From Spirosoma validum (lineage in GTDB: Bacteria > Bacteroidota > Bacteroidia > Cytophagales > Spirosomataceae): a stretch of 64,000 nucleotides of DNA. The notes below the pieces were generated by a model. That model saw only the letters and a program-made list of their open reading frames with translations. It did no database searches and had not been told where the DNA came from. The position numbers and the translations under genes are program-made. Location: NCBI RefSeq assembly GCF_014699035.1, contig NZ_JACXAA010000002.1, forward strand, positions 558,001 to 622,000, read 5' to 3'. Positions 32,367 through 60,888 of the stretch are shown here, in pieces; the stretch's first letter is position 1; every line of letters begins with the position of its first letter.

Positions 32367-32381
32367 GAGCCGAATTACATT

Positions 32382-42689: not shown

Positions 42690-44021
42690 ATGAAAAATTA
42701 CGTAGTGTGGGGTTTTATCTGTGTATTTGGCATGATAATGAGACAGCCCAGCTATGCACAGAAGCCTACCTTCTACCGCGATGTTCAGCCACTAATTCAT
42801 GCCAACTGCGCCGTGTGTCATCGACCGGGGGAGGCCGCGCCGTTTTCGCTCATTACGTATGAAGATGTAACGAAACGGTCGAAGTTCATTAAAAAGGTTG
42901 TAGTGAGTGGCTATATGCCGCCCTGGCGTGCAGACGATCATTACGTTACATTCGCTAATAAACGTAGCCTGACACCGGAACAAATCAAAACCCTGACGGA
43001 CTGGATCGACGCCGACATGCCGAAGGGCAAAGTGAACACTGAGGCTGAAAGCGCTTTGCTGAAGCGGGCGCAGGCCGGTACGGGTTACTCGCGTGTACCC
43101 GACCTGACGTTACGTATGCTAAAGCCATTCACGGTTGTAAGGGACGGCAAAGAACATTTTATGGTGTTTAAGATTCCGTTTGGTCTGGCAGAAACGGCTA
43201 ACGTTGAAGCTGTTGAGTTTACCTCGAACAATAAGAAGGCGATTCACCATGCCAATTTTGCGATTCACCCGGTAGAAGATCCCGCGATTAGCCTGACCAA
43301 TACCGCAGAACAGGTCGACCTGAATGGTGAGGATGCTTCGCGATACCGGGAGTGGTTGCCCTACAAAAAGCAAATGACGTATTACGGAGGGTGGGTTCCC
43401 GGAACAACAGTCGAGACGTATCCGGCCGATATGGGCTGGGTGATGCCGAAACGGGGCGTCATGTTGCTGACCGTGCATTTCGGACCATCTGCGAAGGATA
43501 CCATTAGCTTGAATGGCGTTAATTTTTTCTTTACCAAAAAACCAATTCGCCGGACGGTAAAAGTCATCAGTTTAGGGTCGGGTGGTATTGGTGAGCGCGA
43601 TATTTCGCCCCCGCTGCTGGTATTTGGTGGCGATAGCCTGACAACCAAGTTGAAGGTAGCGTACCGAAATCAACCCATTACGTTATTATACGCCTGGCCA
43701 CACATGCACCAGATCGGCAAACGGTTTACAGCCTTTGTTACTCAGGCCGATCAGGATACGATTCCACTGGTACGTATCCCGGACTGGGATTTTCGCTGGC
43801 AGGAAATCTACCGCTACGAAAAGCCGGTTATCTTACCAACGGGAGCGGTCATTAACGTGATTGGAACGTATGACAATACGGAAAGTAATCCGTTGAATCC
43901 CAACAAACCGCCTAAAATCATTACGTCGGATGGGCAAATGCGGAGCGATCAGGAAATGATGACGTTGTTATTACTGTACGTGGCCTACGAACCCGGCGAC
44001 GAAAACCTTCGGCTTAACTGA
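42690..44021 (+). CDS. Exported cytochrome c fused to a copper type II monooxygenase-like domain
   Basis: 443 residues from the ATG at 42690 (the TTG at 42675 is a poorer start). Signal peptide about 1-24. A c-type heme motif CAVCH has Cys40, Cys43, His44, in a short cytochrome domain that ends near residue 115. The C-terminal region has metal-ligand clusters like peptidylglycine monooxygenase relatives: KAIHHANF near 190, PHMHQIG near 340, and the Met-rich SDQEMMT near the end. Such fused proteins are known in Bacteroidota and Planctomycetes as ascorbate-dependent monooxygenase-like proteins of unknown substrate. It starts 38 bases after a terminator and ends 6 bases before the giant VCBS gene, so it opens a three-gene operon with VCBS B and haloperoxidase B. 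Confidence 0.8.
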   Translation: MKNYVVWGFICVFGMIMRQPSYAQKPTFYRDVQPLIHANCAVCHRPGEAAPFSLITYEDVTKRSKFIKKVVVSGYMPPWRADDHYVTFANKRSLTPEQIKTLTDWIDADMPKGKVNTEAESALLKRAQAGTGYSRVPDLTLRMLKPFTVVRDGKEHFMVFKIPFGLAETANVEAVEFTSNNKKAIHHANFAIHPVEDPAISLTNTAEQVDLNGEDASRYREWLPYKKQMTYYGGWVPGTTVETYPADMGWVMPKRGVMLLTVHFGPSAKDTISLNGVNFFFTKKPIRRTVKVISLGSGGIGERDISPPLLVFGGDSLTTKLKVAYRNQPITLLYAWPHMHQIGKRFTAFVTQADQDTIPLVRIPDWDFRWQEIYRYEKPVILPTGAVINVIGTYDNTESNPLNPNKPPKIITSDGQMRSDQEMMTLLLLYVAYEPGDENLRLN

Positions 44022-44027
44022 CGTGCT

Positions 44028-47000
44028 ATGTTGACACCTCAAACGCTTTTGGCCGTTGTTACCTTGCTGCTCGGGCTGATTTGGCCCGCCAATTTACCCG
44101 AATCACAACCGTTATTTACAGTGCTTTCGCCTGAGCAGACGGGTGTTCAATTTACCAATGTCATTCAGGAAACCGACTCGCTTAACATTTTTCGGTATGA
44201 ATACCTGTACAATGGCAATGGCGTCGGTATCGGCGATTTTGATGGTGATGGTCAATCTGATTTGTTTTTCTCCGGCAATACCGTAGCGCATAAACTCTAT
44301 CTGAACAAAGGAAACTGGCGTTTTAACGACGTAACGAAACAAGCTGGCGTAGCGGGAAATGGTACGTGGGCAACGGGTGTGAGTGTTGCCGACGCGAATG
44401 GCGATGGACGAGTGGATATTTACGTCTGTCATTCAGGGAAATACTCGCCTGAAAAATTAGCCAATGAATTATTTATTAATGAGGGCCTTAAAGACGGCGT
44501 ACCGCAGTTTCGGGAGCGGGCAAAAGAGTTTGGGCTGGATTTGCCCGGAACACAATCTACGCAAGCCGCTTTCTTCGATTACGACCGCGACGGTGACTTA
44601 GACGTTTTTCTTCTGAATCACTCCAATCATACCTACAATCCGTTTCTAAATACCCGCAAGATTCGCGCTACGCCCGATTTTCGGTTTGGCAATCGCCTGC
44701 TACGTAACGACCAGAGTAAGTTTACGGACGTAACGCTGGCCGAAGGTATTCTGAACAATCCGCTTAATTTCGGCCTCAGCGTGGGGGTGAGCGATCTAAA
44801 CGGCGATGGTTGGCCGGATTTATATACGACCAGCGATTATACCGAACAGGACTGTCTGTACCTGAATCAGCACGACGGAACGGGGCATCATACCGGTTTC
44901 AGAGAGTCGCTACGTGGCGCTATGACCCACACATCCAAGTTTTCGATGGGTTGCGACCTGGCCGATTTTAACAACGATACGTTACCCGATGTCGTTACGC
45001 TCGATATGCTGCCTGAAGATAATCATCGGCAAAAGATGCTCAAAGGCCCTGACGAGTATGACGCTTATCAAATGCTGATCGACAGCGGCTATTTCCGTCA
45101 GCAGATGCGGAACATGCTTCAACTAAATCGCGGGAATTGGGGGAACGGTACCGGGCTAAGAGAAATAGCAGAGAAATCGCCTTCTATTAGCCCAGTGCCC
45201 CGTTTTTCCGAAATTGGTCAACTGGCGGGTATAGCTGCTACGGACTGGTCGTGGTCTGCATTACTGGCTGATCTGGATAACGATGGCTGGAAAGACCTGT
45301 TTGTAACGAACGGCTATCTGCGCGATTTCACTGATCTGGATTTCATGAAATACACGGTTGCCGATGCTAAACTGGAAGAAGCAGCTAAGGGGAATCTGAA
45401 CTTTCAGACCGTCGATCTGGTGCGAAAAATGCCATCGAATCGGCTGACAAACTATGCTTTTCGCAATAACCATGATCTGACATTCAGTAACAAGGCGGCT
45501 GCCTGGGGCCTGGCGACGCCAGCCGTATCAGGCGCTGCGGCTTATGCCGATTTTGATGGCGATGGCGATCTGGACCTGGTGATCTGTAAACAGAATGAAC
45601 CTGTTTCGCTCTGCCGGAACAACGCTGAACAGAGCCGGAGCGAAGCCCATTTTCTGCGCGTGCGTTTGGTTGGAAAGGATGCGAACACGCAGGCGATTGG
45701 AGCGAGAGTTGTAATTGAAACTAATGATGGGCGTCAGTTGCAGGAAGCGTATCCGGTGCGGGGGTATCAGGCATCCGTTGAACCGACCATCCATTTTGGT
45801 GTAGGAAAACAGACAACTATAAACCGCTTGACCGTTTACTGGCCCGATGGCCATCAGACCCAGCAAACAAACGTACCTGCTGATCAGACTATTCAAATAC
45901 GACAAGCGGATGCCACTACTACGTCTGCTCTGCCCAAAACTGAAACCTCCTGGTTTAATCCATTGGCGATGAATCAGCTACTGCCATTTCGCCATCGTGA
46001 AAACGACTTTATCGATTTTAAAGTAGAGGTACTCATTCCCTACGAACTATCAAGGTTGGGACCGGCATTGGCAAAAGCGGATGTAAATGGTGATGGACTG
46101 GACGATGTTTTTCTGGGCGGAGCTGTTGGGCAAAATGCCGAGCTATGGATACAGCAAACTAATGGTACGTTCAAACGTTCGGATGAACAGCCCTGGAAAG
46201 CGGATGCTGCCAGCGAAGACGTAAACGCCTTATTTTTCGACGCTGACCGAGATGGCGACGCTGATTTATACGTAGTGAGTGGCGGCAATGAATACGAAAC
46301 GGGTGCGCCCGAATACCAGGACCGCCTTTATCTGAACGACGGGAAAGGCCGTTTCAGCCGCCTTGTACAGGCGCTTCCGCAAATGAGAAGTAGTAAAATG
46401 GCTATTGCTGCTGCCGATATGGATCAGGATGGCGATCTGGATTTGTTTGTGGGCGGACGCGGCAAGCCGGGCGCATTTCCAATACCATCCGAGAGTTATC
46501 TGTTACGTAACGACACACCTGCTAATGGAACTGTGCACTTCACGGACGTAACGGATCAGCTTGCGCCTGCGTTGCGACACATTGGTATGGTGCAGGCGGC
46601 TGGCTGGACGGATTTACAGGGAGATAAGTACCCTGAACTGTTACTAGCTGGCGACTGGATGTCGGTGCGCTTGTTCGACAATCAGAAAGGAAAACTAGCC
46701 GATATTTCGGCGAAAGCTGGACTGGCTGATAGCGAAGGCATGTGGGCTTCGATCCTGCTGGCGGACATTGATCAGGATGGAGATACCGACATTGTTGCAG
46801 GCAATGCCGGGCTGAACAATCTGTTCCGGGCTGAACAAAAGCAGCCGATGCAGATTGTAACGACCGATATTGATAACGACGGTGTGATGGACCCCCTCTG
46901 GACGTATTATATTCAGGGCAAGGCATACCCGGTAGCTTCGCGTGATGAATTGCTTGATCAGGTGGTGCCGTTACGGAAAAAATTCACGCGCTATCATCAA

Positions 47001-47441
47001 TACGCTGATGCCACTGTGCCCGACATTTTGAATAAATCGCAACTGGCACAAGCATCAGTTGTTTCGGTACGGCAACTGGCGTCTGGTATTTTCAAAAATC
47101 AGGGGAATGGTACGTTTCAGTTTGAGTCTTTACCTGTTGAGGCACAATTTTCGCGGGGGAGTGCGTTAGTATTCGAGGATATGGATGCCGACGGGAAATC
47201 TGATTTGCTGGTAGCGGGTAACTTTTATCCATATCGCGTGCAATTTGGCCCTTGCTCGGCCAGTTTTGGTTGTTTGCTGAAAGGTGATGGGGGAGGGCAT
47301 TTTAAGGTTATCGAACCTCGTCAAACGGGAATCTGGGCCGGGGGCGATGTTCGGCAGGTAATCAGCATACGTACCGCTACGAATCGAAAACGGTTGCTGT
47401 TCACAGTAAACGACGGCTCTTTACTGGGTTTTGAGCGATGA
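44028..47441 (+). CDS. Giant FG-GAP/VCBS and ASPIC/UnbV repeat protein (CRTAC1-like), module B
   Basis: 1137 residues. Signal peptide about 1-22 without lipobox. Blades with D-x-D-x-D-G-x-x-D calcium loops are frequent (IGDFDGDGQSDLFF, VADANGDGRVDIYV, FDYDRDGDLDVFL, LADLDNDGWKDLFV). An ASPIC/UnbV domain near 540-620 (ANTQAIGARVVIETNDGRQLQEAYPVRGYQ split over the domain) is followed by a second blade set (LAKADVNGDGLDDVFLGG). The whole order, including LDMLPEDNHRQKM and FVTNGYLRDFTDLDFMKY, matches module A and C proteins, so all three are paralogs. Ends in GFER without a T9SS tail. Its stop overlaps the haloperoxidase start by ATGA. Confidence 0.93.
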   Translation: MLTPQTLLAVVTLLLGLIWPANLPESQPLFTVLSPEQTGVQFTNVIQETDSLNIFRYEYLYNGNGVGIGDFDGDGQSDLFFSGNTVAHKLYLNKGNWRFNDVTKQAGVAGNGTWATGVSVADANGDGRVDIYVCHSGKYSPEKLANELFINEGLKDGVPQFRERAKEFGLDLPGTQSTQAAFFDYDRDGDLDVFLLNHSNHTYNPFLNTRKIRATPDFRFGNRLLRNDQSKFTDVTLAEGILNNPLNFGLSVGVSDLNGDGWPDLYTTSDYTEQDCLYLNQHDGTGHHTGFRESLRGAMTHTSKFSMGCDLADFNNDTLPDVVTLDMLPEDNHRQKMLKGPDEYDAYQMLIDSGYFRQQMRNMLQLNRGNWGNGTGLREIAEKSPSISPVPRFSEIGQLAGIAATDWSWSALLADLDNDGWKDLFVTNGYLRDFTDLDFMKYTVADAKLEEAAKGNLNFQTVDLVRKMPSNRLTNYAFRNNHDLTFSNKAAAWGLATPAVSGAAAYADFDGDGDLDLVICKQNEPVSLCRNNAEQSRSEAHFLRVRLVGKDANTQAIGARVVIETNDGRQLQEAYPVRGYQASVEPTIHFGVGKQTTINRLTVYWPDGHQTQQTNVPADQTIQIRQADATTTSALPKTETSWFNPLAMNQLLPFRHRENDFIDFKVEVLIPYELSRLGPALAKADVNGDGLDDVFLGGAVGQNAELWIQQTNGTFKRSDEQPWKADAASEDVNALFFDADRDGDADLYVVSGGNEYETGAPEYQDRLYLNDGKGRFSRLVQALPQMRSSKMAIAAADMDQDGDLDLFVGGRGKPGAFPIPSESYLLRNDTPANGTVHFTDVTDQLAPALRHIGMVQAAGWTDLQGDKYPELLLAGDWMSVRLFDNQKGKLADISAKAGLADSEGMWASILLADIDQDGDTDIVAGNAGLNNLFRAEQKQPMQIVTTDIDNDGVMDPLWTYYIQGKAYPVASRDELLDQVVPLRKKFTRYHQYADATVPDILNKSQLAQASVVSVRQLASGIFKNQGNGTFQFESLPVEAQFSRGSALVFEDMDADGKSDLLVAGNFYPYRVQFGPCSASFGCLLKGDGGGHFKVIEPRQTGIWAGGDVRQVISIRTATNRKRLLFTVNDGSLLGFER

Positions 47442-48769
47442 AAAAACGATTGGTATTTTGCGTCGTCTGGCTCACCAGCCTAACCGCCTGGGCGCCCGCT
47501 CCAACACCGATTGCAGAAACAACCCTGTTGCATGCTGCTCATCAGTTACTTACCGATATTATGGTGGCCGATGTGTTTTCTCCCCCCGTAGCTTCCCGAA
47601 TTTATGCTTATGCGCACATAGCGGCCTATGAAGCCTTAATTCCCTTTCAGAAAGGGTCATACCGGTCACTGGCGGGTCAACTGCCCTCATTATCATCTTT
47701 AACGGCTAGTCCATCAACTGAATGTCGACCGGAATTGGCGGCTATTGAAGCATTTTTGCGAGTGGGGAAAGGGCTGATTTTCTCGGAAGAACGGCTTGAC
47801 AAACTCACGGCTCAACTCTGGTTACAGGCGCAAAAACGAGGGTATTCGGAGAGAACGATTATAGCCTCAAAGGAATTTGGTTCACAGGTTGCGCTGCATA
47901 TTCTGGAATGGGCTAAAGGCGATAATTACCGCCAGACTCGGTCATTACGTCGATATGCGCCTACAAAAAAAGCCGGCGCTTGGGCACCCACTCCACCCGG
48001 TTATCTGGCCGCTGTCGAACCTTATTGGGCACGCATCCGGCCGCTCACGCTTGATTCAGCCGCACAGTGTCGAACCGTCGGACCGCCATCATTTAGCACG
48101 ACTAATGGGAGTCCATTTTATGCAATGGTGCGAGAGGTTTATGATACAGGGAAGAATTTAACTACGGACCAACGACTCATTGCTAATTATTGGGATTGTA
48201 ATCCGTTTTTCCTGAACATACAGGGGCATTTGAATTTCGCCAGTAAAAAACTATCGCCGGGAGGTCATTGGATGGCTATTGCTGGACAAGTGGCCCGGCA
48301 AACGAAATCTGATCTGATGGCGACAAGTGCAGCTTACACGTTAACGGCTATTGCGCTTTTCGACGGTTTCATTAGCTGCTGGGCAGAGAAATACCAATAC
48401 AACGTAATCCGGCCCGAGACGTATATCAATGCTCATCTGGATGAAAGCTGGCGACCAGTTTTGCAAACGCCCCCCTTTCCTGAATACCCCAGTGGCCATA
48501 GTGTTGTTTCAACAGCCTCGGCTGTGGTATTGACCCATTTTTTTGGAAAGGCTGTTTCCTTTACGGATAGTACAGAGATGGCGTATGGCTTGCCTTCCCG
48601 TCGATTTACATCGTTCAACCAGGCGGCTGATGAAGCCTCAATCAGTCGGCTATATGGCGGTATTCACTATCGACCAGCATTAGACAACGGTCAACTTATG
48701 GGAAAGTCTGTTGGAGAAGCGGTGCTGAGCAAAATCACGCTACGCTCCGCTGCGGCATCAAAACGGTAA
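47438..48769 (+). CDS. Vanadium-dependent haloperoxidase-like protein (PAP2 superfamily), module B
   Basis: 443 residues, signal peptide about 1-19. The complete vanadate pocket is present: Lys318 and Arg325 in KxxxxxxRP (EKYQYNVIRPE), Ser352-Gly-His354, and Arg404 and His410 in SRLYGGIH. It is a paralog of the module A protein, with the same landmarks (WDCNPFF, LSPGGHWM, PPFPEYPSGHS). Enzymes of this family use peroxide to oxidise halides, or act as phosphatases. Start and preceding stop overlap (ATGA). It is the last gene of module B; 42 bases downstream lies the truncated ftsE 3' end on the opposite strand. Confidence 0.88.
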   Translation: MKKRLVFCVVWLTSLTAWAPAPTPIAETTLLHAAHQLLTDIMVADVFSPPVASRIYAYAHIAAYEALIPFQKGSYRSLAGQLPSLSSLTASPSTECRPELAAIEAFLRVGKGLIFSEERLDKLTAQLWLQAQKRGYSERTIIASKEFGSQVALHILEWAKGDNYRQTRSLRRYAPTKKAGAWAPTPPGYLAAVEPYWARIRPLTLDSAAQCRTVGPPSFSTTNGSPFYAMVREVYDTGKNLTTDQRLIANYWDCNPFFLNIQGHLNFASKKLSPGGHWMAIAGQVARQTKSDLMATSAAYTLTAIALFDGFISCWAEKYQYNVIRPETYINAHLDESWRPVLQTPPFPEYPSGHSVVSTASAVVLTHFFGKAVSFTDSTEMAYGLPSRRFTSFNQAADEASISRLYGGIHYRPALDNGQLMGKSVGEAVLSKITLRSAAASKR

Positions 48770-48810
48770 GCTCGTTTGATTAGCCGTTAAAGGTTTGTAC
48801 GAAAAATTAG

Positions 48811-48915
48811 TTATCCCCGCAATTCGACTACCTGACCGTCCTGGCAACGTAGCACGCGACCGGGGTACTTGTGTATGAACTCGTAATTGTGCGTAGCCAT
48901 AAAAATAGCTGTGCC
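48811..48915 (-). pseudogene. Truncated 3' end of an ftsE-like ABC ATPase gene
   Basis: The minus strand encodes 34 residues plus a stop that match the C-terminus of the intact ATPase at 60208-60888: [19 protein letters not shown]...[10 protein letters not shown], with one change (Phe for Leu). At DNA level 93 of 105 bases agree with 60208-60312 (my alignment by eye), and 11 of 12 differences are synonymous. Above 48915 the match stops, although the frame stays open for about 22 codons back to a TAA. The Walker A, signature and Walker B parts are missing, so no ATPase can be made. It converges with module B. The synonymous pattern means the fragment diverged as part of a working gene, not as a freshly made local copy. 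Confidence 0.9.
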
Positions 48916-49168
48916 ACTCTGCTGATCTGACGGGCTAAAAATGCCAATCGTGAGCAATTTAGTTATTTGCCGATAAGCTTAACAAGGGTCTTATTTTTCC
49001 AGGAAATGAAAAGAATAAGACCGGTTCTAAAGGAAGGCATTAAGCAAGTCGTTTGCTATGAAAAAATTAGAGAAGTGGAGCGTCAAGACTTTCTAACGTC
49101 AAGTTACAGGATTAGTCTGGACTGCGAGTAAATTCCTGGAATGCTCCAAGTGACTTTCTACTACGTCC
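48916..49168. other. Gap between the ftsE remnant and the GH26 gene, 253 bases
   Basis: No gene recognised. The left part (to about 48980) continues an open minus-strand frame joined to the remnant, with weak resemblance to ABC proteins (ITKLL...SDQQSGTAIF) that may be decayed coding DNA. The rest shows no clear terminator or repeat. Confidence 0.4.
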
Positions 49169-50311
49169 TCAGCGATACATTTTTGGTAAATCTGCCTCAA
49201 ACCACGTATACGGGTCCTGATAAAAACGGAGAAAATCAGGCACACTGGCCTGCCCGGGGTAGGGCGCGTAATAATGGGTTGCACTTTGCCTGTCATTGCG
49301 CCAGACCAGTACGTAAGCTAGTCGCATTTTTTCAGCTTTCAACGATTTCAATAACGTAGTGGTCCACCAGGTTGTATCCGGAATTGATTCAAGTCCTGTC
49401 TCCGTGAAGGCGGCCAATTTCCCGGCTTTTTGTGCATACTCCGATACAATTTTTAATTTCTGAATACCAGCGCTTACATCATAACGACCGTTACGTCCGA
49501 AATCGGCGTAGTTATCCATGCCGACCATATCAACCCACGCATCGCCTGGATAGCGCTCCAAATACTCGGCTTCTGTTTTGAAAAGGCAGTCGGGCGAGAA
49601 GGCATACAGGAAATTATTTACCTGAAGGCTATCGCGCAGGTACGAAACCGTGAAGCGCCATAGGGAGACAAAATCTTTCTGGCTACAGTGCGGCTTTCCC
49701 CACCAGAACCAACCGCCATCGAACTCATGATACGGTCGAAAAATCATCGGCACTAGTTTCCCGTCTTTGCCTTTCACGGAGCGAGCCAAATCACCAACGG
49801 TACGTAGAATCTCTTTGTATTTTTCATGGTGAGAACCGCCTGGAATTAGATGGGATACTGCAGCTACAGAAACCGTATCAATCCAGTAAAATCCACCTTT
49901 AGAAACCGGATTGGAAAAATGCCAGGCAACAGTCGTTACGCCCCCACGATTATACGTATCAATAATCTGTTGACGTAGCAACGCTTTTGTCTTGTCAATC
50001 GCTTCGAGCGAACGACCCGACAAACCACTAAAGTCGATACCAATAACGGCCGGATGCGAACCCGTTACCGATTTAACATCTGACCGATTGGAATCACCCA
50101 CCCATCCATGACCATATTCAGTAGCGTGCTGATGACCAAACAAAATATGCTTCCTGCTCAGCTTTCGTAAGTTTCGATAGAGCGCTTTTGTCTCTTTGGT
50201 CGCTTTCGGGTCGATGGGTTTGTTACGATCGTTTTTTGCTTCTAGTATAGTTGGCCCTACTAAGTAGGCCAACAATCCAATTTGAGCTAATCGAAGTAAA
50301 CGTTTACGCAT
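49169..50311 (-). CDS. Glycoside hydrolase family 26 (beta-mannanase-like), secreted
   Basis: 380 residues from the ATG at 50311; an ATG at 50428 would add 39 residues before the signal sequence (RKRLLRLAQIGLLAYLVGP) and is less likely. The GH26 (beta/alpha)8 domain has HILFGHQHATEYGHGW near the start, the acid/base Glu196 in PYHEFDGGWFWWG, and the nucleophile Glu304 in AFTETGLES (numbering from 50311). Clan GH-A enzymes of family 26 cleave beta-1,4-mannan, some lichenan or xylan. It is divergent from the module C SusC gene, which suggests that module C takes up mannan or a related oligosaccharide; this is the only substrate hint in the three modules. No lipobox or T9SS tail is seen. Confidence 0.93.
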   Translation of the reverse strand: MRKRLLRLAQIGLLAYLVGPTILEAKNDRNKPIDPKATKETKALYRNLRKLSRKHILFGHQHATEYGHGWVGDSNRSDVKSVTGSHPAVIGIDFSGLSGRSLEAIDKTKALLRQQIIDTYNRGGVTTVAWHFSNPVSKGGFYWIDTVSVAAVSHLIPGGSHHEKYKEILRTVGDLARSVKGKDGKLVPMIFRPYHEFDGGWFWWGKPHCSQKDFVSLWRFTVSYLRDSLQVNNFLYAFSPDCLFKTEAEYLERYPGDAWVDMVGMDNYADFGRNGRYDVSAGIQKLKIVSEYAQKAGKLAAFTETGLESIPDTTWWTTTLLKSLKAEKMRLAYVLVWRNDRQSATHYYAPYPGQASVPDFLRFYQDPYTWFEADLPKMYR

Positions 50312-50650
50312 GATAAAGAGGTATAGTGATAGGCTAATTACACGCTGTTTCTGGTCGGTTCCAAAAACAAGACGGTGCGTGAGATTAAAATCAGTTATTG
50401 GTAAAATACAATAATATCTATCATGCATAAAAATGTTTCGAGAAATATTCCAGATTAAAAGATGATAAAAAGCAGCATTATTTGATGTACTATTTAGAGT
50501 ATATCTACTTATATTTAGATGGCTATTTTCAGTTGAATTTATTTAGTATTTTTTGGTATTTACCCATGCTGAAATTCAAGGATAAGTACAAAATAGTGTG
50601 AATAAACTCAATAGACAGCAGCGCATTTGTCTTTCACTCTTTTCACTAGT
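50312..50650. other. Divergent intergenic region between GH26 and susC C, 339 bases
   Basis: AT-rich and without a convincing coding frame (a 39-codon upstream extension of GH26 is possible). It must hold both promoters. Near 50505-50520 TATATTTA is one base off the -7 box, but I could not find a good -33 partner. Confidence 0.4.
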
Positions 50651-53600
50651 ATGAAAAAAAACTTACTTTATTTCAAAATCCTTCTTCTTTCCCTTCTGAC
50701 AACGCTCAGCTTTGCGCAGAGCGTTGACGTCAGAGGGCGCGTTACCGGCGAAGGAGGTACGCCTATCTACGGTGCCAACGTAGTGGTCAAGGGCAGTCGG
50801 CAGGGCGCAGTCACCGATGAGAAAGGTGATTACCGAATTCAGGTGCCTAAGGGATCAATACTGACGGTTAGCTTTATTGGCTATGTAGCAAAAGATGTTC
50901 CAATCGGGAATAATTCGACGCTGAACGTATCACTGTCTCCTCAATCGTCTGTGCTGGATGAAGTTGTTGTAACAGCCCTTGGTATTAGAAAAGAGCGTAA
51001 ATCACTCGGCTATTCGACTACTGAAATCAAAGGTGAAGATCTGACCCAGGCCCGGTCGGTCAACGTAGCGAACTCGCTGGTTGGTAAAGTAGCTGGTCTG
51101 AACATTACTGGAACGGCGACGGGCCCAAGTGGATCGAGCCGGATTACGATTCGGGGTAATGGATCGATTGGTGGCAACAACCAACCCCTGATTGTTGTGG
51201 ATGGGATTCCGATTAACAACGATAACCTGGGTTCAGTAGGGATGTGGGGTGGTTCTGATAAAGGCGACGGCATTTCGAGTCTGAACCCCGACGAGATCGA
51301 AACCATGAACGTACTGAAAGGTGCTACAGCCGCGGCTCTTTATGGCTCGCGGGCCTCGAATGGCGCTATTCTGGTAACGACCAAAGGTGGCAAGGTGGGT
51401 CGGGGAATTGGGGTTGAGGTGAACAGTAATTTCGTAGCTGAAGATCTGCTGATCAAACGGTTTAAAGATTATCAGTACGATTACGGCGCTGGTAATAACG
51501 GCCAAAAACCAACGACTGTACTGGAAGCCACAACGACAAACAGTTGGGGCGGAAAATTAGATGGGACCAGCGTTATGCAATACGATGGCGTGGCCCGCCC
51601 TTACGTAGCGCAGCGCGACAACCTGATCAATTTCTACAAAACGGGCAATACGTTTACCAACTCGATCGCAATCAGTGGAGCCAGCGAAAAAGTTACGTAT
51701 CGTTTGTCGATGAATAACCTGGATAACCACGGGATTGTACCGGGTAATACGCTTCATCGGAACAACTTTGCGTTGAATACCAACGCTACGCTGGGGCCTA
51801 AGCTGACGGTTGTGGCCAACGTTAAATACATCACGGAGAAAAACCATAACCGGCCACGCCTGTCCGATTCGCCGGGCAATGCGAACTATACGTTGTTTAC
51901 GATGCCGACATCGCTGCCGATTTCAACCATGCAGGATAATATCTTCGATAGCCGTGGGTATGAGAAGGTTTGGTCAGAAAACATTTACGTCCAGAACGCC
52001 TATTTTGCTACTAACCAATACAAGCAGGATGATCAGAAAAACCGGGTCATTGCAGCCATTGAGCCTACGTATACCGTAACGCCCTGGTTGTCGCTGATGG
52101 CACGTCTGGGTTTCGACAACTATGCCTACCGGAATACGGAAATTACGCCGACAGGAACAGCTTATCAGCTCAATGGTGGCTACAATAATAACCTGCGTAA
52201 TTTTACGGAAAGCAACTACAGCCTGAATGCGACCATAAAGCACAGTATCACAAATGATATTGGGTTTAGCCTGTTAATGGGCGGAAACCTGATGAAGCAG
52301 GTGAATAAACTGGATAATTACAGTGGTAGTGGGTTCAATATTCCGTTCTTCTACGATATTTCCAACATTAGCCCGGCGTCTCGAAGTGTTTCCTACAATT
52401 ATATCGAGAAACGTATTAACTCAGTATATGCATCGGCTGACCTTTCGTACAAAAATTTCCTGTATGTGAACTTAGGTGGTCGTAATGACTGGTTTTCAAC
52501 GCTGGCTGCGGGTAAAAACAGTATTTTTTACCCATCTGTTGGAGCCAGCTTTGTGCTAACAGAAGCGTTTAAGCTACCTGCTGCAATCAGTTTTGCCAAA
52601 CTTCGGGGTTCATGGGCACAGGCCGGGGGTGATACGGATCCCTACAATCTCTCGCTCTATTATGGTCTGACAGGCTCTCATTTAGGACAACCTCTGGCCC
52701 AGATTAATGGTAGTCAGGTTCCTAACTCAAATCTTCAGCCGCTAACGTCTACTACGTCGGAACTGGGTCTTGAAGCACGACTGTTCAATAACCGGATGGG
52801 AATTGACTTTGCTGTGTATAACCGTAAAACAACTAACGATATCGTAGCGGCTTCCATCTCCGGAACATCGGGTTTTTCCAGCGCTCTGTTCAATGTTGGG
52901 CAGATTTCGAATAACGGCATTGAACTGCTACTGAACTACGATATCGTTAAAGCCCGTGACTTCTCCTGGAATGCTTCGTTTAATTTCGCCTACAACAAAA
53001 ACCAGGTCATCTCTCTCTACGGTGATCTTCAGAACCTGCAAGTCGGTGATCCGGCCCGTTCGCAGTCGTCTTACGTGTTTCAGCAAATTGGCCAGCCATT
53101 TAGCCTGATTAAAGGGTTTGCCTATAAACGGGATGCAACCGGTAACGTAATTTATGACGCACAGGGATACCCGCTGAAGAGCGATCTGGTCTCGTATGGT
53201 ACGGGCGTTTCGCCAATTACACTTGGCTTTAATAATTCCTTCCGCTACAAAGGTATTGGGCTAAGTTTCCTGATTGACGGCAAGTTTGGTGGCCATATTT
53301 ATTCGGGTACCAACGCGCTGGCCTATCGTTATGGTCTTCATGCCGAAACCCTGCCCGGTCGCGAAACGGGTATTGTTGGCAAGGGCGTGAACGAGAAAGG
53401 CGAACCCAATGCGGTGAACGTACCGGCCCAGCAGTACTACCAGTACCTGTATAATTTTGCTGAGCCGTTCGTTTATAGCTCTGATTTCCTTAAACTACGT
53501 CAGGTGATTATCGACTATACCATTCCGGCACGGTTGCTGAATAAAATGCCGTTCAAAGCCGCGTCTATCTCCATTGTGGGCCGTAATCTGGCTATCCTGA

Positions 53601-53722
53601 TGAAGCACACGCCGAACATCGATCCGGAATCGACCTACAATAACACAAACGCACAGGGACTGGAGTTTGCGGGTGCCCCACCAACGCGCTCAATGGGGAT
53701 TAACCTCAACCTGAAATTCTAA
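50651..53722 (+). CDS. SusC/RagA-type TonB-dependent outer-membrane transporter (module C)
   Basis: 1023 residues from the ATG at 50651 (TTG at 50627 rejected). Signal peptide about 1-22 (LSFAQS), CarboxypepD_reg-like domain (VRGRVTGEGGTPIYGANVVVKG), VVVTALGIRKE near 110, plug with LIVVDGIPINND and NPDEIETMNVLKGATAAALYGSRASNG, then the barrel to the terminal NLKF. It shares YDYGAGNNGQKPTT, SWGGKLDGT and PYVAQRDNLINFYK with the module A SusC, so the two are recent paralogs. SusD starts 34 bases later. Probably imports oligosaccharides released by the adjacent GH26. Confidence 0.97.
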   Translation: MKKNLLYFKILLLSLLTTLSFAQSVDVRGRVTGEGGTPIYGANVVVKGSRQGAVTDEKGDYRIQVPKGSILTVSFIGYVAKDVPIGNNSTLNVSLSPQSSVLDEVVVTALGIRKERKSLGYSTTEIKGEDLTQARSVNVANSLVGKVAGLNITGTATGPSGSSRITIRGNGSIGGNNQPLIVVDGIPINNDNLGSVGMWGGSDKGDGISSLNPDEIETMNVLKGATAAALYGSRASNGAILVTTKGGKVGRGIGVEVNSNFVAEDLLIKRFKDYQYDYGAGNNGQKPTTVLEATTTNSWGGKLDGTSVMQYDGVARPYVAQRDNLINFYKTGNTFTNSIAISGASEKVTYRLSMNNLDNHGIVPGNTLHRNNFALNTNATLGPKLTVVANVKYITEKNHNRPRLSDSPGNANYTLFTMPTSLPISTMQDNIFDSRGYEKVWSENIYVQNAYFATNQYKQDDQKNRVIAAIEPTYTVTPWLSLMARLGFDNYAYRNTEITPTGTAYQLNGGYNNNLRNFTESNYSLNATIKHSITNDIGFSLLMGGNLMKQVNKLDNYSGSGFNIPFFYDISNISPASRSVSYNYIEKRINSVYASADLSYKNFLYVNLGGRNDWFSTLAAGKNSIFYPSVGASFVLTEAFKLPAAISFAKLRGSWAQAGGDTDPYNLSLYYGLTGSHLGQPLAQINGSQVPNSNLQPLTSTTSELGLEARLFNNRMGIDFAVYNRKTTNDIVAASISGTSGFSSALFNVGQISNNGIELLLNYDIVKARDFSWNASFNFAYNKNQVISLYGDLQNLQVGDPARSQSSYVFQQIGQPFSLIKGFAYKRDATGNVIYDAQGYPLKSDLVSYGTGVSPITLGFNNSFRYKGIGLSFLIDGKFGGHIYSGTNALAYRYGLHAETLPGRETGIVGKGVNEKGEPNAVNVPAQQYYQYLYNFAEPFVYSSDFLKLRQVIIDYTIPARLLNKMPFKAASISIVGRNLAILMKHTPNIDPESTYNNTNAQGLEFAGAPPTRSMGINLNLKF

Positions 53723-53756
53723 TCGTCCTGACGTTAATCTTGAAAACCTCGAAAAA

Positions 53757-55301
53757 ATGAAACGTAAGATATTGGCAATGCTTACCCTGACCGTAGCGAT
53801 GGGGGCTTGCACAAAGGATTTCCAGACAATAAACGTAAACCCGAATGCACCATCATCCGTGCCATTGCCTTTCCTGCTGGGACAGGTACAGCTGATGATT
53901 GATGGATCGTCGCCAGACCCTGGTTATAAAACCTGGCGGGGAAACCTGATTTATTCGGGTCCAATGGTTCAGCAACTAGCTTCCACAAACTCGTATTATG
54001 TAGGCGACAAATACGTCTATAGTACTGAAAACTGCGGGGCTTATTTTGCCGACTCCTACTCAAACTCGGTTAAAAACCTGGTCAACCTGATTGCCCTTGC
54101 CAAAACCGATCCGGCGAACGTCAACATTCTGTCGATGGCTCGCATTTTGAAAGTATTTCAAATGCATATCATTACAGATATGTACGGCGACGCGCCCTAC
54201 TCCGAAGCGGGTTTAGGCTATCTGAACCAGACATTTGCGCCTAAGTATGATCTTCAGAAAGACATTTATGCTGATATGCTGAAGGAACTTGATGAGGCAG
54301 GTAAGGCTTTATCGGCGTCGGCAACTACACCAGCGTCTGCTGATTTTTCGTTCGGGGGCGACGTTACTAAATGGAAAAAGTTTGCCAACTCGCTCATGTT
54401 GCGATTAGCCATGCGGATGCAGAAAGTTGATGCGGCTTCTGCCCAGACTTGGGCCAAAAAAGCGGTTGATGGGGGGCTGATGACCAGCAATGATGATACG
54501 TACACGATTAAACATTCAGACGGTCCTACGTATAGCATCAACTCCAACTCGTATAACCTCAGCATCTTTTCGTCGGGCGGGCGAAATATTCTGAACGAAG
54601 ACGCCGTTTTGTGGTCGAAAACTCTCATCGACATGATGAAGGCGCGTAAAGACCCCCGGGTAAACGTCATCGCGGCTATTGCTGGTGGTGATAAGACGCC
54701 CAGTAAACAAAAGGGTCTGCCAAATGGCTACGATAACACAACCGGGACGCCATATAGTCTGGCCACTGTCGGTGATGCAAATCTGAAAAATTATTCACGT
54801 CCTGCACCCATCATGGTTAATGCCGATGATCCGAATATCTTTTTAACGTATGCTGAAACACGCTTCCTGCTGGCTGAAGCCATCGAGCGTGGCTGGGCCA
54901 CCGGTTCAGCTAAAGACGAGTATGCCAAAGGGCAGGCAGCCGCTCTCTCGCAATTAGTGCTTTATGACCCAACGGCGGCCATCACTAACACCGCCGATTA
55001 CGTAGCGGCTAACCCCTATCCAGGCGGTTCGCTGGACGATAAGCTGGCGCAGATTCATAATGAGATGTTTATTCTGACGGCCACCACACTAAACTTTTAT
55101 GAAGGCTGGGCCAACTGGCGCCGGACGGGGTTGCCCAAGCTGACACCGGTAAATTATCCGGGTAACTCATCGGGTGGACAGATTCCTCGTCGGTTACTCT
55201 ATCCGCCTTCCGAAGCGGCTGTAAATCCGAACTACGCTATTGCGAATGATCGTCAGGGTGGTGATTCGTTTATTTCACGAGTGTGGTGGGATAAGCAGTA
55301 A
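53757..55301 (+). CDS. SusD/RagB-family outer-membrane lipoprotein (SusD-like_2 type), module C
   Basis: 514 residues. Lipobox MGAC (Cys near 19), then INVNPNAPSSVPLPFLLGQ, HIITDMYGDAPYSEAGLGY, GDVTKWKKFANSLMLRLAMRM, LTYAETRFLLAEAIERGW, SGGQIPRRLLYP and terminal SRVWWDKQ. Module A SusD shares GDVTKWKKF, YAET and the SRVWWDK end, again pointing to a common origin of modules A and C. It serves as the surface lid for SusC C. A terminator follows before the FG-GAP gene. Confidence 0.95.
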   Translation: MKRKILAMLTLTVAMGACTKDFQTINVNPNAPSSVPLPFLLGQVQLMIDGSSPDPGYKTWRGNLIYSGPMVQQLASTNSYYVGDKYVYSTENCGAYFADSYSNSVKNLVNLIALAKTDPANVNILSMARILKVFQMHIITDMYGDAPYSEAGLGYLNQTFAPKYDLQKDIYADMLKELDEAGKALSASATTPASADFSFGGDVTKWKKFANSLMLRLAMRMQKVDAASAQTWAKKAVDGGLMTSNDDTYTIKHSDGPTYSINSNSYNLSIFSSGGRNILNEDAVLWSKTLIDMMKARKDPRVNVIAAIAGGDKTPSKQKGLPNGYDNTTGTPYSLATVGDANLKNYSRPAPIMVNADDPNIFLTYAETRFLLAEAIERGWATGSAKDEYAKGQAAALSQLVLYDPTAAITNTADYVAANPYPGGSLDDKLAQIHNEMFILTATTLNFYEGWANWRRTGLPKLTPVNYPGNSSGGQIPRRLLYPPSEAAVNPNYAIANDRQGGDSFISRVWWDKQ

Positions 55302-55322
55302 TCCCTGCCCATGCATCACCTC

Positions 55323-55355
55323 GGAATGCCTTTGGAAACGAAGGCATTCCTTGTT
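55323..55355 (+). terminator. Rho-independent terminator after susD C
   Basis: GGAATGCCTT (55323-55332) pairs perfectly with AAGGCATTCC (55341-55350), with an 8-nt loop and followed by TTGTTT. Confidence 0.85.
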
Positions 55356-55407
55356 TAAGAGCAAAGGGGCTCGTCAGTTCTGTTATGATCTTTATTACCC
55401 TGTTCCA

Positions 55408-56877
55408 ATGAATGCTCGTCACCTTTTCGTTTTCAGTTTACTCCTCCTCGGTTTGTTTTATGCACAGGTAGCGGTTGGGCAAACCTCCTGGTCGACGTTG
55501 CTACCCACCATTGGCACCTTCTCCTCGCCCCGCGTAACCGATCTGAACCGCGACGGGGTTCAGGACATTATACTGGGGGCTGGGCGACTTGAATTTCAGC
55601 GCTGCGACTCGGCCATTATCGCATTAGATGGTAAAACGGGTAAATTGCTTTGGAATCGGTCTGCGAATGATCAGATTTTTGGGTCAGCGGCTTTGAAAGA
55701 CATCAACGCAGACCAGATTGACGATGTGTTCATTAACGGACGGTCTTCCGAACTACAGGCGATTGATGGTGCTACCGGGCGCGTCATCTGGAAATTTGAT
55801 ACGCTAAATTACCCAGGCAAGTCATGGTTTAATTTTTACAACCCGCAGTTTATTCACGATGTCGATCACGACGGTATCGACGATCTGCTACTAGCCAATG
55901 GGGGCGATATTATCGTACCGCCACACAATCCGAACCGGCGGGCAGGGCGGCTGGTTGTCATAAGTACCAGAACTGGTAAACTGCTGGCCAGCGCGACCAT
56001 GCCCGACGGAAAGGAGATTTATATGTCGGTGGTAGTCAATAAAGACTCGCTTCATCCTGAGCGATCGCCGATTCTCTTCGGCACGGGGGGCGAAACCATC
56101 GGCGGTAATTTGTTTGTGGGCACGATTGGCATGTTGCTGCAAGGCGATTTGTCGAGTGCCGAACAACTGGCCTCTTGCGCTACCAAAGGCTTCATAGCTC
56201 CGCCCGCCTGGGCCGACCTAACCAACGACGGGATAAAAGACATAGTCGTCAACAGTGTGGATGGGCGGGTCATGGCTTTTGACGGCAAGACGCACCGTTC
56301 GCTTTGGTCTACTCAACTGCTGTATACCGAAGCCTATTCGTCCATGGCCATTGGTTATTTCAATAGGGATCCCGTTCCGGATGTGTTCGTGTCGTTTGCG
56401 CAGGGAACCTGGCCCGACCTGACCTGGACGAAACAGGCTATGGTCAATGGCATAAATGGACAGATCGAGTTCTCAGATTCCCTGGGCTTTTATCAGACCA
56501 GTAGTCCCGTGGTGGCTGATGTAACGGAAGATGGCGTTGATGAGGTAATTCTTAGCGTTGATTATCAGTTGATTGACTCGCTGGGATTCAAGTCGTTTTC
56601 TAATACTCTGATGGTTATTCAGTTTGATAAGCATATGGTTGTACCACTGCTGGAAGGGTTACCTGGGCATAACGTATCATCGACACCTTGGGTGGGCGAT
56701 TTAGATAAGGATGGCTTCCTGGATATTGTCTTCTGTAACGGAACGAACCCACGCAAAACCTACACCTTCGACGGGATGCGCGTTAATAAAATCGGCACAA
56801 CCATTCCCCTATCCAGGCGGCATCAGTGGGGGGCTTACATGGGCAGTCATTACGATGGTGTGTTCAGAAGCCCGTGA
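55408..56877 (+). CDS. Secreted FG-GAP/PQQ-like beta-propeller protein
   Basis: 489 residues from the ATG at 55408; the open frame reaches back to 55240 into susD, but the ATG starts a clear signal peptide (about 1-24, ending VAVGQ). Blades alternate FG-GAP calcium loops (VTDLNRDGVQDIILGAG, WADLTNDGIKDIVV, VGDLDKDGFLDIVF) with PQQ-like strands (IALDGKTGKLLWN, IDGATGRVIWKFD, AFDGKTHRSLWST), so it is a mixed propeller. No catalytic residue is evident; it may bind a ligand or partner at the surface. It sits between susD C and the giant VCBS gene of module C, in the place where modules A and B have nothing (A) or the cytochrome (B). The function is unknown. Confidence 0.85.
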   Translation: MNARHLFVFSLLLLGLFYAQVAVGQTSWSTLLPTIGTFSSPRVTDLNRDGVQDIILGAGRLEFQRCDSAIIALDGKTGKLLWNRSANDQIFGSAALKDINADQIDDVFINGRSSELQAIDGATGRVIWKFDTLNYPGKSWFNFYNPQFIHDVDHDGIDDLLLANGGDIIVPPHNPNRRAGRLVVISTRTGKLLASATMPDGKEIYMSVVVNKDSLHPERSPILFGTGGETIGGNLFVGTIGMLLQGDLSSAEQLASCATKGFIAPPAWADLTNDGIKDIVVNSVDGRVMAFDGKTHRSLWSTQLLYTEAYSSMAIGYFNRDPVPDVFVSFAQGTWPDLTWTKQAMVNGINGQIEFSDSLGFYQTSSPVVADVTEDGVDEVILSVDYQLIDSLGFKSFSNTLMVIQFDKHMVVPLLEGLPGHNVSSTPWVGDLDKDGFLDIVFCNGTNPRKTYTFDGMRVNKIGTTIPLSRRHQWGAYMGSHYDGVFRSP

Positions 56878-56916
56878 AATTTGGTTTATCTTTGTTTAGC
56901 TGACTACTTGCTTTTT

Positions 56917-59900
56917 ATGGCTTTTTCTTATCTCCGCGTTACTTGTTCGCTTGCCTGGTTTGTCTTCCTGCTGGTGGGCTGCAAAAACAAATCCGCTGAC
57001 TCCCTCTTCACACAACTTTCGGCCGACGATACGCATGTCAACTTTGTCAACGCCATTCAGGAAACCGAAAAAGATAACGTACTGAACTACGAGTATTTCT
57101 ATAACGGTGGGGGCGTAGCGGCTGCAGATTTCAACAATGATGGCTTAATTGACCTGTATTTTACAGCCAATCAGGGCGAAGACAAACTCTACATTAACGA
57201 AGGAAAACTCGCCTTCAAGGACGTAACGAAAACGGCTGGAATTACCTGGCAGGGCGAGTGGAAAACCGGCGTAACGGTTGTTGACATCAATAATGATGGC
57301 TGGCAGGATATTTACCTATCGGTGTCAGCTAACGTAGACAAACCGGCGTTACGTCATCACAAGCTCTATATCAATAACAAAAACCTGACGTTCACCGACC
57401 GGGCGGCTGATTATGGTCTGGATTTGATCACTTACGCAACTCAGGCCGCTTTCTTTGATTATGATCAGGATGGTGATCTGGATGTTTATCTGCTCAATCA
57501 CAACGTAAAGGACTTTAAACGTTTCGACGCCGACGCCGTTCACGCCATGCGCGATTCACTGGCCGGGCATCGGCTTATGCGCAATGACGGGCCAAATAAG
57601 AAATTTATTGATGTTAGCGTTCAGGCGGGTATTAAAGGAAATCCCATTGGCTTTGGACTAGGCATCCATACTGCCGATCTGAACGGCGATGGCTGGACAG
57701 ATATTTACGTATCCAACGATTATCTGGAGGAAGATTACTTATACCTGAACAACAAGAACGGTACGTTTACTGACGTAGTGAAAAAGGCGACGGGGCATGT
57801 CAGTTATTTTTCAATGGGCAACGATGTTGGGGACATTAACAATGACTTACTGCCTGACATTGTTACGATGGATATGTTGCCCGAAGATAATAAGCGGCAG
57901 AAACTGTTGTTCGGGCCAGATAAGTATGAAGCGTATTTGTCCATGCTACGTAACGGATTCCATCCCGAAACGATGCGGAATATGCTGCAACTCAATAACG
58001 GTGTCGATCCGGCTGGGAACCCAATATTTAGTGAAATCGGGCAATTGGCAGGTGTATCGAGTACAGATTGGAGTTGGTCACCCTTACTGGCCGATTATGA
58101 CAATGATGGATTCAAAGATCTGTTTGTTACGAATGGTTATCTGCGCGATTATACGAACAACGATTTCGTGAAATATTACGCCGATCAGGGCCAGCAACAA
58201 AACAAGAGCGTGATGGAAACAATCAGCCACATGCCATCGACAAAAACGCCAAATTACATCTTTCGGAATGAGCACAATCTGACTTTTTCCAACAAACAAG
58301 TCGACTGGGGTTTCGATACACCAGTGGTCTCCAACGGGGCCGTTTACGCCGATCTGGATAACGACGGGGATTTGGAACTTGTAACGAATAACATCAACGA
58401 AAAAGCGTTTGTGTATCAGAATCTTGCCGTTGAGAAAGCTGAAAACAACTTCATTGATTTGATTCTGGACCCCAAAAAAACGGCCCAGTCCGTAACCGGG
58501 ACAAAGGTATTCATGTACAGCAGCGACCTAAAACAGTATCAGCAGTATACGCCAACGCACGGATTTCAGAGTAGTATGCTGGTGCCTATGCATTTTGGTT
58601 TGGGAAAACATCAAACAATTGACAGTCTGATTGTTGTGTGGCCAAACGGAAGTGTTCAGAAACTCAGCGGAATTAAATCAAATCAACGGTTAAACGTTAC
58701 GTATGCACCGACAGCTTCGGCAATAGCTCCCAAACCAGGCACTGCAACGTCGATGTTTACACAGACGAATACGTTGGATTTTACGCATACCCAACTCCCA
58801 CAAAATGACTTTGGCCGGCAACTGTTATTGCCGCATATGTATTCGTATGCAGGTCCGCATATGACGAAAGGGGATGTAAATAAAGATGGCTTAGATGATC
58901 TCTACATTGGTGGAGGAAAAGGCCAGGCTGGCGAATTATTTCTCCAGCAGAAAGGCGGCCGTTTTCTGAAAACAAATCAGGCTGCATTCAAACAGGATGC
59001 TCTATGTACGGATACCGACGCGGCTTTTCTGGATGCCGACGCCGACGGCGATCTGGATTTATACGTAACAAGTGGCGGCTATGAATACTTGCCAAACGAT
59101 CTATTGCTCCAGAATCGACTTTATCTGAACGATGGTAAAGGAAATTTTACGAAAGACGCGAATCGCCTGGATCTAAACGATTATGCAGGCAATGCTGTAA
59201 AAACACTTGATTTTGACAAAGACGGTGATCTGGACTTGTTTGTGTGTGGATCTGTTGTTCCGAACCAGTATCCCCGGTTTCAGCCGAGTCGATTATATCG
59301 TAATAATAAGGGGAAGTTCGTTCTCGTAAAAAGTGACGCCTTCAACGACTTAGGGCTGTTAACGGATGCCTGCATTGTCGATTTCAACAAAGATGGTTTC
59401 GATGATATTATAGCAGTAGGGGAGTGGACACCCGTTATTCGATTGCAAAACGAACATGGCGTTTTCAGGCGGATATACGATGAACTGGAGCAAACAACCG
59501 GTTTCTGGCAACGTATTGCCGCCGATGATTTTGATCAGGATGGAGATATGGATTTGATCGTTGGAAACTACGGCCTGAATTGTCACTTTAGAGCCTCTTC
59601 TGAATTACCTCTAACGATGCTAACCGACGATTTTGATGGGAATGGTACCATTGACCCAATTATTTGCTATTACATTCAGGGGAAAAATTATCCGGCTTAT
59701 AGTCGTGATGAGTTACTGGATCAGTTGGCACCCCTTCGCAAAACGTACACGTCTTATGCTGTTTATTCAGACGCCACGGCCGACGATGTACTGAAGCAAT
59801 TCAATGGAAAAACACCGCAGAAAGCGACGATTAATGATTTATCTACGCTTTATTTAGTGAATAACATCGGCCGCTTTGAGCGCCGGGATTTACCCATTCA

Positions 59901-60192
59901 GGCTCAGTTTGCTCCGGTATACGCTATACTTTCGCAGGATCTGAACGGCGACGGATTTAAGGATTTGGTGTTGGCAGGTAATCAGACTCGCGGGCGAGTC
60001 AGGACGGGAAATATCGACGCGAACTATGGACAGGTTTTTCTGAATAACCGGAAAGGAAATTTCACCTATGTACCTCAGCATCAATCGGGGCTATACCTGC
60101 GGGGCGATGTCAGGTCGCTGATGTTTATCAATAATCAACTAATTGCGGGCATCAACAGCCAGAAAGTGCAGGTTTACACTAAGACAAAGTAA
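56917..60192 (+). CDS. Giant FG-GAP/VCBS and ASPIC/UnbV repeat lipoprotein (CRTAC1-like), module C
   Basis: 1091 residues from the ATG at 56917 (TTG at 56881 rejected). Lipobox LLVGC with Cys near 22 and then KNKSADS, so it is a lipoprotein. Blades carry the usual calcium loops (AADFNNDGLIDLYF, TADLNGDGWTDIYV, FDYDQDGDLDVYL, LADYDNDGFKDLFV). An ASPIC/UnbV domain lies near 525-600 (VTGTKVFMYSSDLKQYQ, VVWPNGSVQKL), then a second blade set. Paralog of the module A and B giants. Here no haloperoxidase gene follows: 16 bases after the stop the convergent ftsE-like gene ends. This is the one module lacking its PAP2 partner. Confidence 0.93.
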   Translation: MAFSYLRVTCSLAWFVFLLVGCKNKSADSLFTQLSADDTHVNFVNAIQETEKDNVLNYEYFYNGGGVAAADFNNDGLIDLYFTANQGEDKLYINEGKLAFKDVTKTAGITWQGEWKTGVTVVDINNDGWQDIYLSVSANVDKPALRHHKLYINNKNLTFTDRAADYGLDLITYATQAAFFDYDQDGDLDVYLLNHNVKDFKRFDADAVHAMRDSLAGHRLMRNDGPNKKFIDVSVQAGIKGNPIGFGLGIHTADLNGDGWTDIYVSNDYLEEDYLYLNNKNGTFTDVVKKATGHVSYFSMGNDVGDINNDLLPDIVTMDMLPEDNKRQKLLFGPDKYEAYLSMLRNGFHPETMRNMLQLNNGVDPAGNPIFSEIGQLAGVSSTDWSWSPLLADYDNDGFKDLFVTNGYLRDYTNNDFVKYYADQGQQQNKSVMETISHMPSTKTPNYIFRNEHNLTFSNKQVDWGFDTPVVSNGAVYADLDNDGDLELVTNNINEKAFVYQNLAVEKAENNFIDLILDPKKTAQSVTGTKVFMYSSDLKQYQQYTPTHGFQSSMLVPMHFGLGKHQTIDSLIVVWPNGSVQKLSGIKSNQRLNVTYAPTASAIAPKPGTATSMFTQTNTLDFTHTQLPQNDFGRQLLLPHMYSYAGPHMTKGDVNKDGLDDLYIGGGKGQAGELFLQQKGGRFLKTNQAAFKQDALCTDTDAAFLDADADGDLDLYVTSGGYEYLPNDLLLQNRLYLNDGKGNFTKDANRLDLNDYAGNAVKTLDFDKDGDLDLFVCGSVVPNQYPRFQPSRLYRNNKGKFVLVKSDAFNDLGLLTDACIVDFNKDGFDDIIAVGEWTPVIRLQNEHGVFRRIYDELEQTTGFWQRIAADDFDQDGDMDLIVGNYGLNCHFRASSELPLTMLTDDFDGNGTIDPIICYYIQGKNYPAYSRDELLDQLAPLRKTYTSYAVYSDATADDVLKQFNGKTPQKATINDLSTLYLVNNIGRFERRDLPIQAQFAPVYAILSQDLNGDGFKDLVLAGNQTRGRVRTGNIDANYGQVFLNNRKGNFTYVPQHQSGLYLRGDVRSLMFINNQLIAGINSQKVQVYTKTK

Positions 60193-60207
60193 ACCAACAC
60201 GTAGTAA

Positions 60208-60888
60208 TTAACCCCTCAATTCGACTACCTGACCATCTTGGCAACGTAACACGCGACCTGGGTATTTGTGTATCAACTCGTAATTATGAGTAGCCATAAA
60301 AATGGCGGTGCCACCGGTATTGATCGCCTGAAAGACTTTCATGATCTGATCAGCCACGGCTGGGTCGAGGTTACCCGTTGGTTCGTCGGCGATAATTATT
60401 TGCGGGTGGTTAAGCAATGATCGGGCAATCACGACGCGCTGCTGCTCGCCACCTGACAACTGGTGGGGCATTTTTTGCTGGGCCGTATCCAAACCAACCT
60501 GAGTAAGTACTTCGGCAATACGTCGATCCATGTCTGCTTTATTCGTCCAGCCAGTGGCTTTCAAAACAAATTTCAGATTGTCTTCGACCGACCGATCAAA
60601 AAACAGTTGAAAATCCTGGAAGACAATCCCGATTTTTCGACGAAGCTGAGGAATATCCCGCGGGGTGAGGGCATTCAACGCATAACCAGCTACGTGTCCT
60701 TTCCCTGTCTGAAGCCACAGATCGGCGTATAACGTTTTGAGCATCGATGACTTACCACTGCCCGTACGGCCAATTACGTAGACGAAATCACCTTTGTTGA
60801 TTTGAAACGATACGTTGCCTAAGACCAACTTTTTGCCCTGATAAATGTCGGCGTGGTCGAGGCTAAGAACGGGTTCGGGGGGAAGCAT
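60208..60888 (-). CDS. ftsE: ABC transporter ATP-binding protein, FtsE-like
   Basis: 226 residues, the FtsE size. Walker [10 protein letters not shown] (near 40-47), Q-loop [16 protein letters not shown], signature LSGGEQQRV, Walker [13 protein letters not shown], and the H-loop in MATHNYE. In Bacteroidota such proteins are annotated as the cell-division ATPase FtsE, which with FtsX controls peptidoglycan hydrolases. No ftsX is adjacent, so the assignment rests on sequence only. The 3' 105 bases are duplicated at 48811-48915. It converges with module C; on the other side it is preceded by the transaldolase-like gene with 88 bases between them. Confidence 0.88.

Follow-up and report, generated by a model that had tools for sequence, protein, structure and literature searches.

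A displaced ftsE 3' end in Spirosoma validum as a likely scar of horizontal recombination at a SusC/SusD hotspot

How did a second 3' end of the cell-division gene ftsE, which codes for an ABC transporter ATPase, come to lie between SusC/SusD modules in Spirosoma validum? The locus belongs to a stretch of 64,000 nucleotides (the window; contig NZ_JACXAA010000002.1 of assembly GCF_014699035.1, positions 558,001 to 622,000), which sits in an 8.2-Mb genome labelled G000; coordinates below are window positions, and the other genomes of the 36 compared within the genus are labelled G001 to G035. Intact ftsE, assigned by homology and family, occupies 60208-60888 on the minus strand. The displaced 3' end lies at 48808-48917, also on the minus strand, and is recognized by its DNA and protein match to resident ftsE, by the ratio of silent to replacement divergence and by its place in a tree. 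We propose, with a probability of about 0.72, that this tail is the scar of a horizontal recombination, in either direction, between two differently stocked versions of one hotspot from closely related Spirosoma lineages.

Positions 48811-48915 repeat 60208-60312 in the same orientation and in the frame of ftsE, with 93 of 105 bases identical, and correspond to its final 34 codons plus the stop. The 12 differences are distributed over codon positions 1, 2 and 3 as 2, 0 and 10; 11 of them are synonymous and the single residue change is F/L. Our recount gave the same figures as the preliminary description of this DNA. The ungapped match extends over 110 bp (48808-48917 against 60205-60314; 88% identity, E ~1e-33), and no third tail locus was found in G000, either with DNA including flanks (E <= 0.001) or with protein (E <= 0.01). 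The match is not due to chance and has been shaped by selection. The tail itself is probably now without function.

To which ftsE did this tail belong? Between tail and resident ftsE, synonymous divergence (Ks) is 0.77 and nonsynonymous divergence (Ka) 0.013. When all 12 changes were assigned to the tail, none of 20,000 random draws altered one residue or fewer; this version of the test is generous to our favoured reading, since some of the 12 will have arisen on the resident copy. With 5, 6 or 7 changes on the tail, 225, 47 and 12 of 20,000 draws, respectively, were equally silent. A maximum-likelihood tree was built from 31 rows: one for each of 29 other genomes, one for resident ftsE and one for the tail, which fills 15% of the columns. 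In it the tail is sister to resident ftsE (support 99/94) and G006 comes next (100/99). Furthermore, at codons 14 and 19 of the stretch both copies encode isoleucine and glycine, respectively, which occur there in none of the 30 other species compared. Based on the Ks and Ka values, the silent-change draws and the sister position, the tail was probably, until recently, part of a functional ftsE in a sister lineage outside the sample, in line with the earlier suggestion of a working gene from a related lineage. Excluded from the tree were G012 and G019 (frameshifted), G029 (partial), G017 (one codon shorter), G025 and G027. In both G012 and G019, ftsE is split in two frames by a one-base shift near codon 132-146 and the remainder aligns end to end; either bases in a run were miscalled or the frameshift is genuine.

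A local duplication of the genome's own ftsE tail, decaying without function, would agree with the finding that resident ftsE is the nearest known relative of the tail. However, the divergence values and the draws, even those with only 5 to 7 changes on the tail, are contrary to such a history, as is the behaviour of G006, which at the 12 differing sites agrees with the tail at five, with the resident copy at five and with neither at two. We therefore reject a neutral local duplication on Ks/Ka and the random draws, which bear out the earlier argument that functionless decay would not keep this synonymous bias, and we give this reading hardly any credence. A fragment of an unrelated second ATPase gene, which the preliminary description had also considered, is rejected as well, because the tail groups as sister with resident ftsE.

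The end of the match above position 48915 had been described as abrupt, and it is indeed sharp. What follows, and had escaped the preliminary description, is a piece of another gene: 48919-48957 (minus strand) encodes LLTIGIFSPSDQQ, an internal piece of a gene that we call X, in frame with the ftsE tail and recognized by its identity to X of relatives. X of G010 and X of G028 have the same 13 residues, with 7 and 9 base differences that are silent throughout, and X of G007 shares 11 of the 13. X is an FG-GAP protein according to Pfam, with orthologs (at least 72% identity) in 13 of the 36 genomes, three of which (G007, G010, G028) have it within the hotspot; in G010 and G028 the gene there is intact. 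G000 has no X match at E <= 1e-120, the nearest being a 42% paralog on another contig. A possible start of X lies at 48999-49041 on the minus strand (ATG 49040-49038, MPSFRTGLILF...), aligning with the X start codons of G007, G010 and G028 and colinear with the internal piece, with about 0.6 kb of X absent between them; taken alone it scores 34, 31 and 27 against best values of 35, 30 and 30 from 100 shuffles, and is not significant by itself.

The neighbouring gene on the other side is damaged too, which likewise had not been described before. The GH26 gene (49169-50428, minus strand; assigned by family and by comparison with the C-termini of six relatives) lacks its final codons, ending in MYR and a stop where relatives have, for example, MYKRKLFF and a stop. 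Its stop comes several codons earlier than in all six relatives compared and lies near the end of DNA homology. Together with the X piece, this early stop means that 48808-49168 contains broken gene ends. The X piece running into the ftsE tail is an illegitimate junction of unrelated sequences, the kind of junction looked for in a scar of homology-facilitated illegitimate recombination (HFIR).

In which setting did this junction arise? The left border of the region is a gene for a response regulator with a PglZ domain (17063-18628, plus strand; Pfam and genome comparison), which we take to be porX, and the right border is ftsE. We could compare the interval in 34 of the 36 genomes, between species with one genome each; G029 gave no match to the left gene, and in G033 this gene is broken. 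The two border genes converge in 19 genomes including the window, with 87 bp (G032) to 41.6 kb (the window) between them; two more genomes have them convergent at distances of 144 and 360 kb, five have them in another arrangement and eight have them on different contigs. The interval is therefore a hotspot, with the same two border genes and variable content. The left border gene of G033 looks broken at G033:C1:7732661-7732773, with internal stops and two partial overlapping matches.

The hotspot of the window holds three SusC/SusD/FG-GAP-UnbV modules of one plan in a row, all on the plus strand, and the full order reads A-B-tail-X-GH26-C-ftsE. Module A (27656-37143) comprises SusC, SusD, a propeller and a PAP2 protein and was delimited by synteny, with Pfam for the propeller and PAP2; its SusC and SusD are named by homology to the module C genes and by the preliminary description, both being outside the Pfam scan. 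Module B (37483-48769) comprises SusC, SusD, a 448-aa protein, an FG-GAP/UnbV propeller and PAP2, by families and by the same five-gene unit in relatives. Module C (50627-60192) comprises SusC, SusD, a 545-aa FG-GAP protein and an FG-GAP/UnbV propeller, by families and synteny. The PAP2 proteins that end modules A and B are 45% identical.

The relatives indicate which of these parts stand together elsewhere. We compared the ftsE loci of 33 of the 35 other genomes (all save G025 and G027), taking at most 20 kb each, less at contig ends (G026, G029, G031), and counting open reading frames of at least 90 residues as genes. In G006, the nearest relative at ftsE, the two border genes enclose only a ROK-family gene (Pfam). 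The order is ROK-A-GH26-ftsE in G016; in G028 and in G007 it is X, then a homolog of the esterase-like gene at 22936-25446, then A, GH26 and ftsE. G010 has the same order with module C, without the 545-aa gene, between GH26 and ftsE, and G004 and G014 have GH26 at ftsE and no module A. Module A and GH26 are thus neighbours in four of the 33 loci (G007, G010, G016, G028), and A-GH26-C-ftsE is found in one (G010). Module B, on the other hand, was at ftsE in none of the 33 loci examined, and no strain was seen in which it directly meets intact ftsE, an arrangement that the preliminary description had envisaged. Its five-gene unit lies at least 1 megabase from ftsE on the same contig in G004, G005 and G014 and on a contig other than that of ftsE in G035; a relative of its last gene in G026 is again on a contig other than that of ftsE.

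A second displaced tail exists in the genus. Among the 36 genomes, only G000 and G013 carry a second ftsE tail, and a protein search with this tail across the family, which matched 215 of 222 genomes and is weak for far genera, returned double matches in the same two only. As a control, we searched with the C-terminal 38 residues encoded by the left border gene; they matched 35 of the 36 genomes (all save G029) and had a second copy in none, both matches in G033 overlapping within one broken gene. With counts as small as two genomes and zero, no difference can be claimed. In G013, ftsE is separated from a 63-base displaced tail by a gene for a PIN-domain protein and its small neighbour, which has no Pfam family; the six differences of this tail are all silent (0.0002 of random draws). 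In G026, a near relative of G013, ftsE stands directly before the gene that follows the displaced tail of G013. Of the six differing sites, the G026 tail agrees with the resident copy of G013 at sites 1 and 2 and with the displaced copy at sites 3 to 6, a mosaic that fits recombination between paired tails and may also be due to chance. The PIN cassette is present in G019 with no clear tail. Near its ends, the cassette of G013 carries the two arms of a perfect 13-bp inverted repeat, TGCGCAAAATCAG and CTGATTTTGCGCA (L125:3976-3988 and 4606-4618), the right arm touching the displaced tail.

Such a recurrence, with a second copy in the same orientation on the far side of foreign DNA, is also what one might expect from an integrative element whose attachment site is the ftsE 3' end and which brings its own tail and displaces that of the host, like elements in the ends of tRNA and other genes. 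Nevertheless, we consider such an element very improbable. No integrase or transposase family was detected by Pfam in 19 of the 21 hotspot proteins of the window (27656-30757 and 30765-32366 being outside the scan), in agreement with the preliminary description, or in 17 proteins from the hotspots of G002, G004, G010, G012, G018 and G024, two of which are without any family. The neighbouring block begins inside gene X, with no clean end. Moreover, the tail starts at about codon 193 in the window and at about codon 206 in G013, and because these codons differ the site is not fixed and an attachment site common to both genomes is rejected. The proposal that the ftsE 3' end is a repeated landing place thus stands in so far as the region is a hotspot with one second case, and falls in so far as a common attachment site was implied. 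A broader version, in which the ftsE 3' end would be a recurrent, integrase-free recombination anchor in the genus, where cassettes would arrive attached to a neighbour's ftsE tail and paired tails could recombine to shed cargo, appears doubtful to us.

We return to recombination between two versions of the hotspot. The data show the copied tail, its origin in a functional gene and its sister placement, as well as the X piece, the shortened GH26 and the synteny of the relatives; the recombination mode, its direction and the number of steps we infer. One parent would have carried module B ending at an ftsE allele, and the other GH26-C-ftsE, like present-day G010. On one side a crossover would have taken place in shared sequence, in module A or the left flank if B is the newcomer; shared flanks that could host a crossover, namely module A and ftsE, do exist. 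Along resident ftsE, the identity to G006 has no clear step. On the other side, the last 105 bases of the ftsE of the first parent would have been joined illegitimately to broken X, beside the clipped GH26. HFIR is the best-fitting mode; it is not proven, because its homologous end is only inferred. The resulting direct repeat could in principle let RecA delete GH26-C or merge both tails.

As to direction, we tentatively favour the entry of module B with its ftsE tail into an A-GH26-C-ftsE array, between A and GH26. This is the simplest path, because relatives show A-GH26 and A-GH26-C-ftsE and none has B there. Of the two entries proposed in the preliminary description, the arrival of module B with a foreign ftsE tail therefore fits best, and the entry of GH26, SusC, SusD and propellers at the ftsE tail fits less well, since A and GH26 are neighbours in four of the 33 loci and A-GH26-C-ftsE is intact in G010, all without B. 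The probability given at the outset is shared between this direction and its reverse, which we regard as possible and on the unlikely side. In the reverse case, an A-B-ftsE' recipient would have received X-GH26-C-ftsE, with a crossover in or beyond ftsE on the right and an illegitimate join at about codon 193 of the former ftsE; the native copy would be the displaced tail, and the working ftsE, in whole or in its 3' part, would have come from outside. A single event would then yield the observed order, the join of X and tail being its only new junction, and the continuity of the displaced tail of G013 with the gene that directly follows ftsE in G026 is as expected. Yet G010 already has A, GH26 and C side by side in this order, and G016, G028 and G007 have A next to GH26, so they need not stem from different parents; furthermore, A-B-ftsE was seen in none of the 33 loci.

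Several observations weigh against recombination between two versions of the hotspot as we describe it. The join of X and ftsE itself demands a rearrangement, because X adjoins ftsE in none of the 33 loci; none of them has X beside GH26 or beside an ftsE tail either, nor, as said, B beside ftsE, so that neither exact parent is seen. The position of the tail in the tree rests on few sites, the tail being short (102 columns). The native copy cannot be named from distances to relatives: G006 is equally distant from both (87 of 105 bases each), G013 and G032 match the tail at 83 bases each and the resident stretch at 78 and 77, and G009 matches the resident stretch at 83 and the tail at 78. Finally, more than one event is possible.

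If our reading is right, the 41.6-kb run with its three SusC/SusD modules holds DNA of more than one lineage with no visible integrase, because the scar keeps two ftsE alleles and a gene piece at one seam. Displaced gene tails with silent changes only would offer an easily searched mark of recent transfer at hotspots, even where a species is represented by one genome. Should the doubtful anchor proposal hold, silently diverged displaced tails, as in the window and G013, would be tags to date and type each event. Our literature searches returned nothing pertinent by title on ftsE in Spirosoma, no search being aimed at displaced ftsE tails, and no match uniting polysaccharide utilization loci, horizontal transfer, Bacteroidetes, integration site and susD.

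The kind of event is already known, and the scar in the window is a new and clear instance of it. The displaced ends at Rhs loci can encode new protein tips, whereas the ftsE tail has the look of a scar and nothing more. Like this tail, the displaced 3' regions of Rhs loci mentioned in excerpts of PMC5361080 are orphan gene ends beside a working copy. A 2017 study (excerpts of PMC5635113) describes chromosomal hotspots whose content arrives by recombination at the core genes on either side, and the Spirosoma hotspot is like them in its two constant border genes, its variable interval in 19 genomes and the absence of an integrase from the proteins scanned; in contrast, double homologous recombination of that type would presumably leave no displaced tail, and the scar here shows an illegitimate end. 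HFIR has been reported for Escherichia coli conjugation (excerpts of PMC3240628) and proposed for effector-immunity arrays of the type VI secretion system in Vibrio cholerae, where its authors call it rare (excerpts of PMC5361080). As in those arrays, we find a foreign segment with one illegitimate junction, one presumably homologous junction and a displaced gene end beside foreign genes; unlike in the excerpted V. cholerae cases, what is displaced here is the 3' end of a housekeeping gene at the border of a SusC/SusD module hotspot, fused to a piece of another gene.

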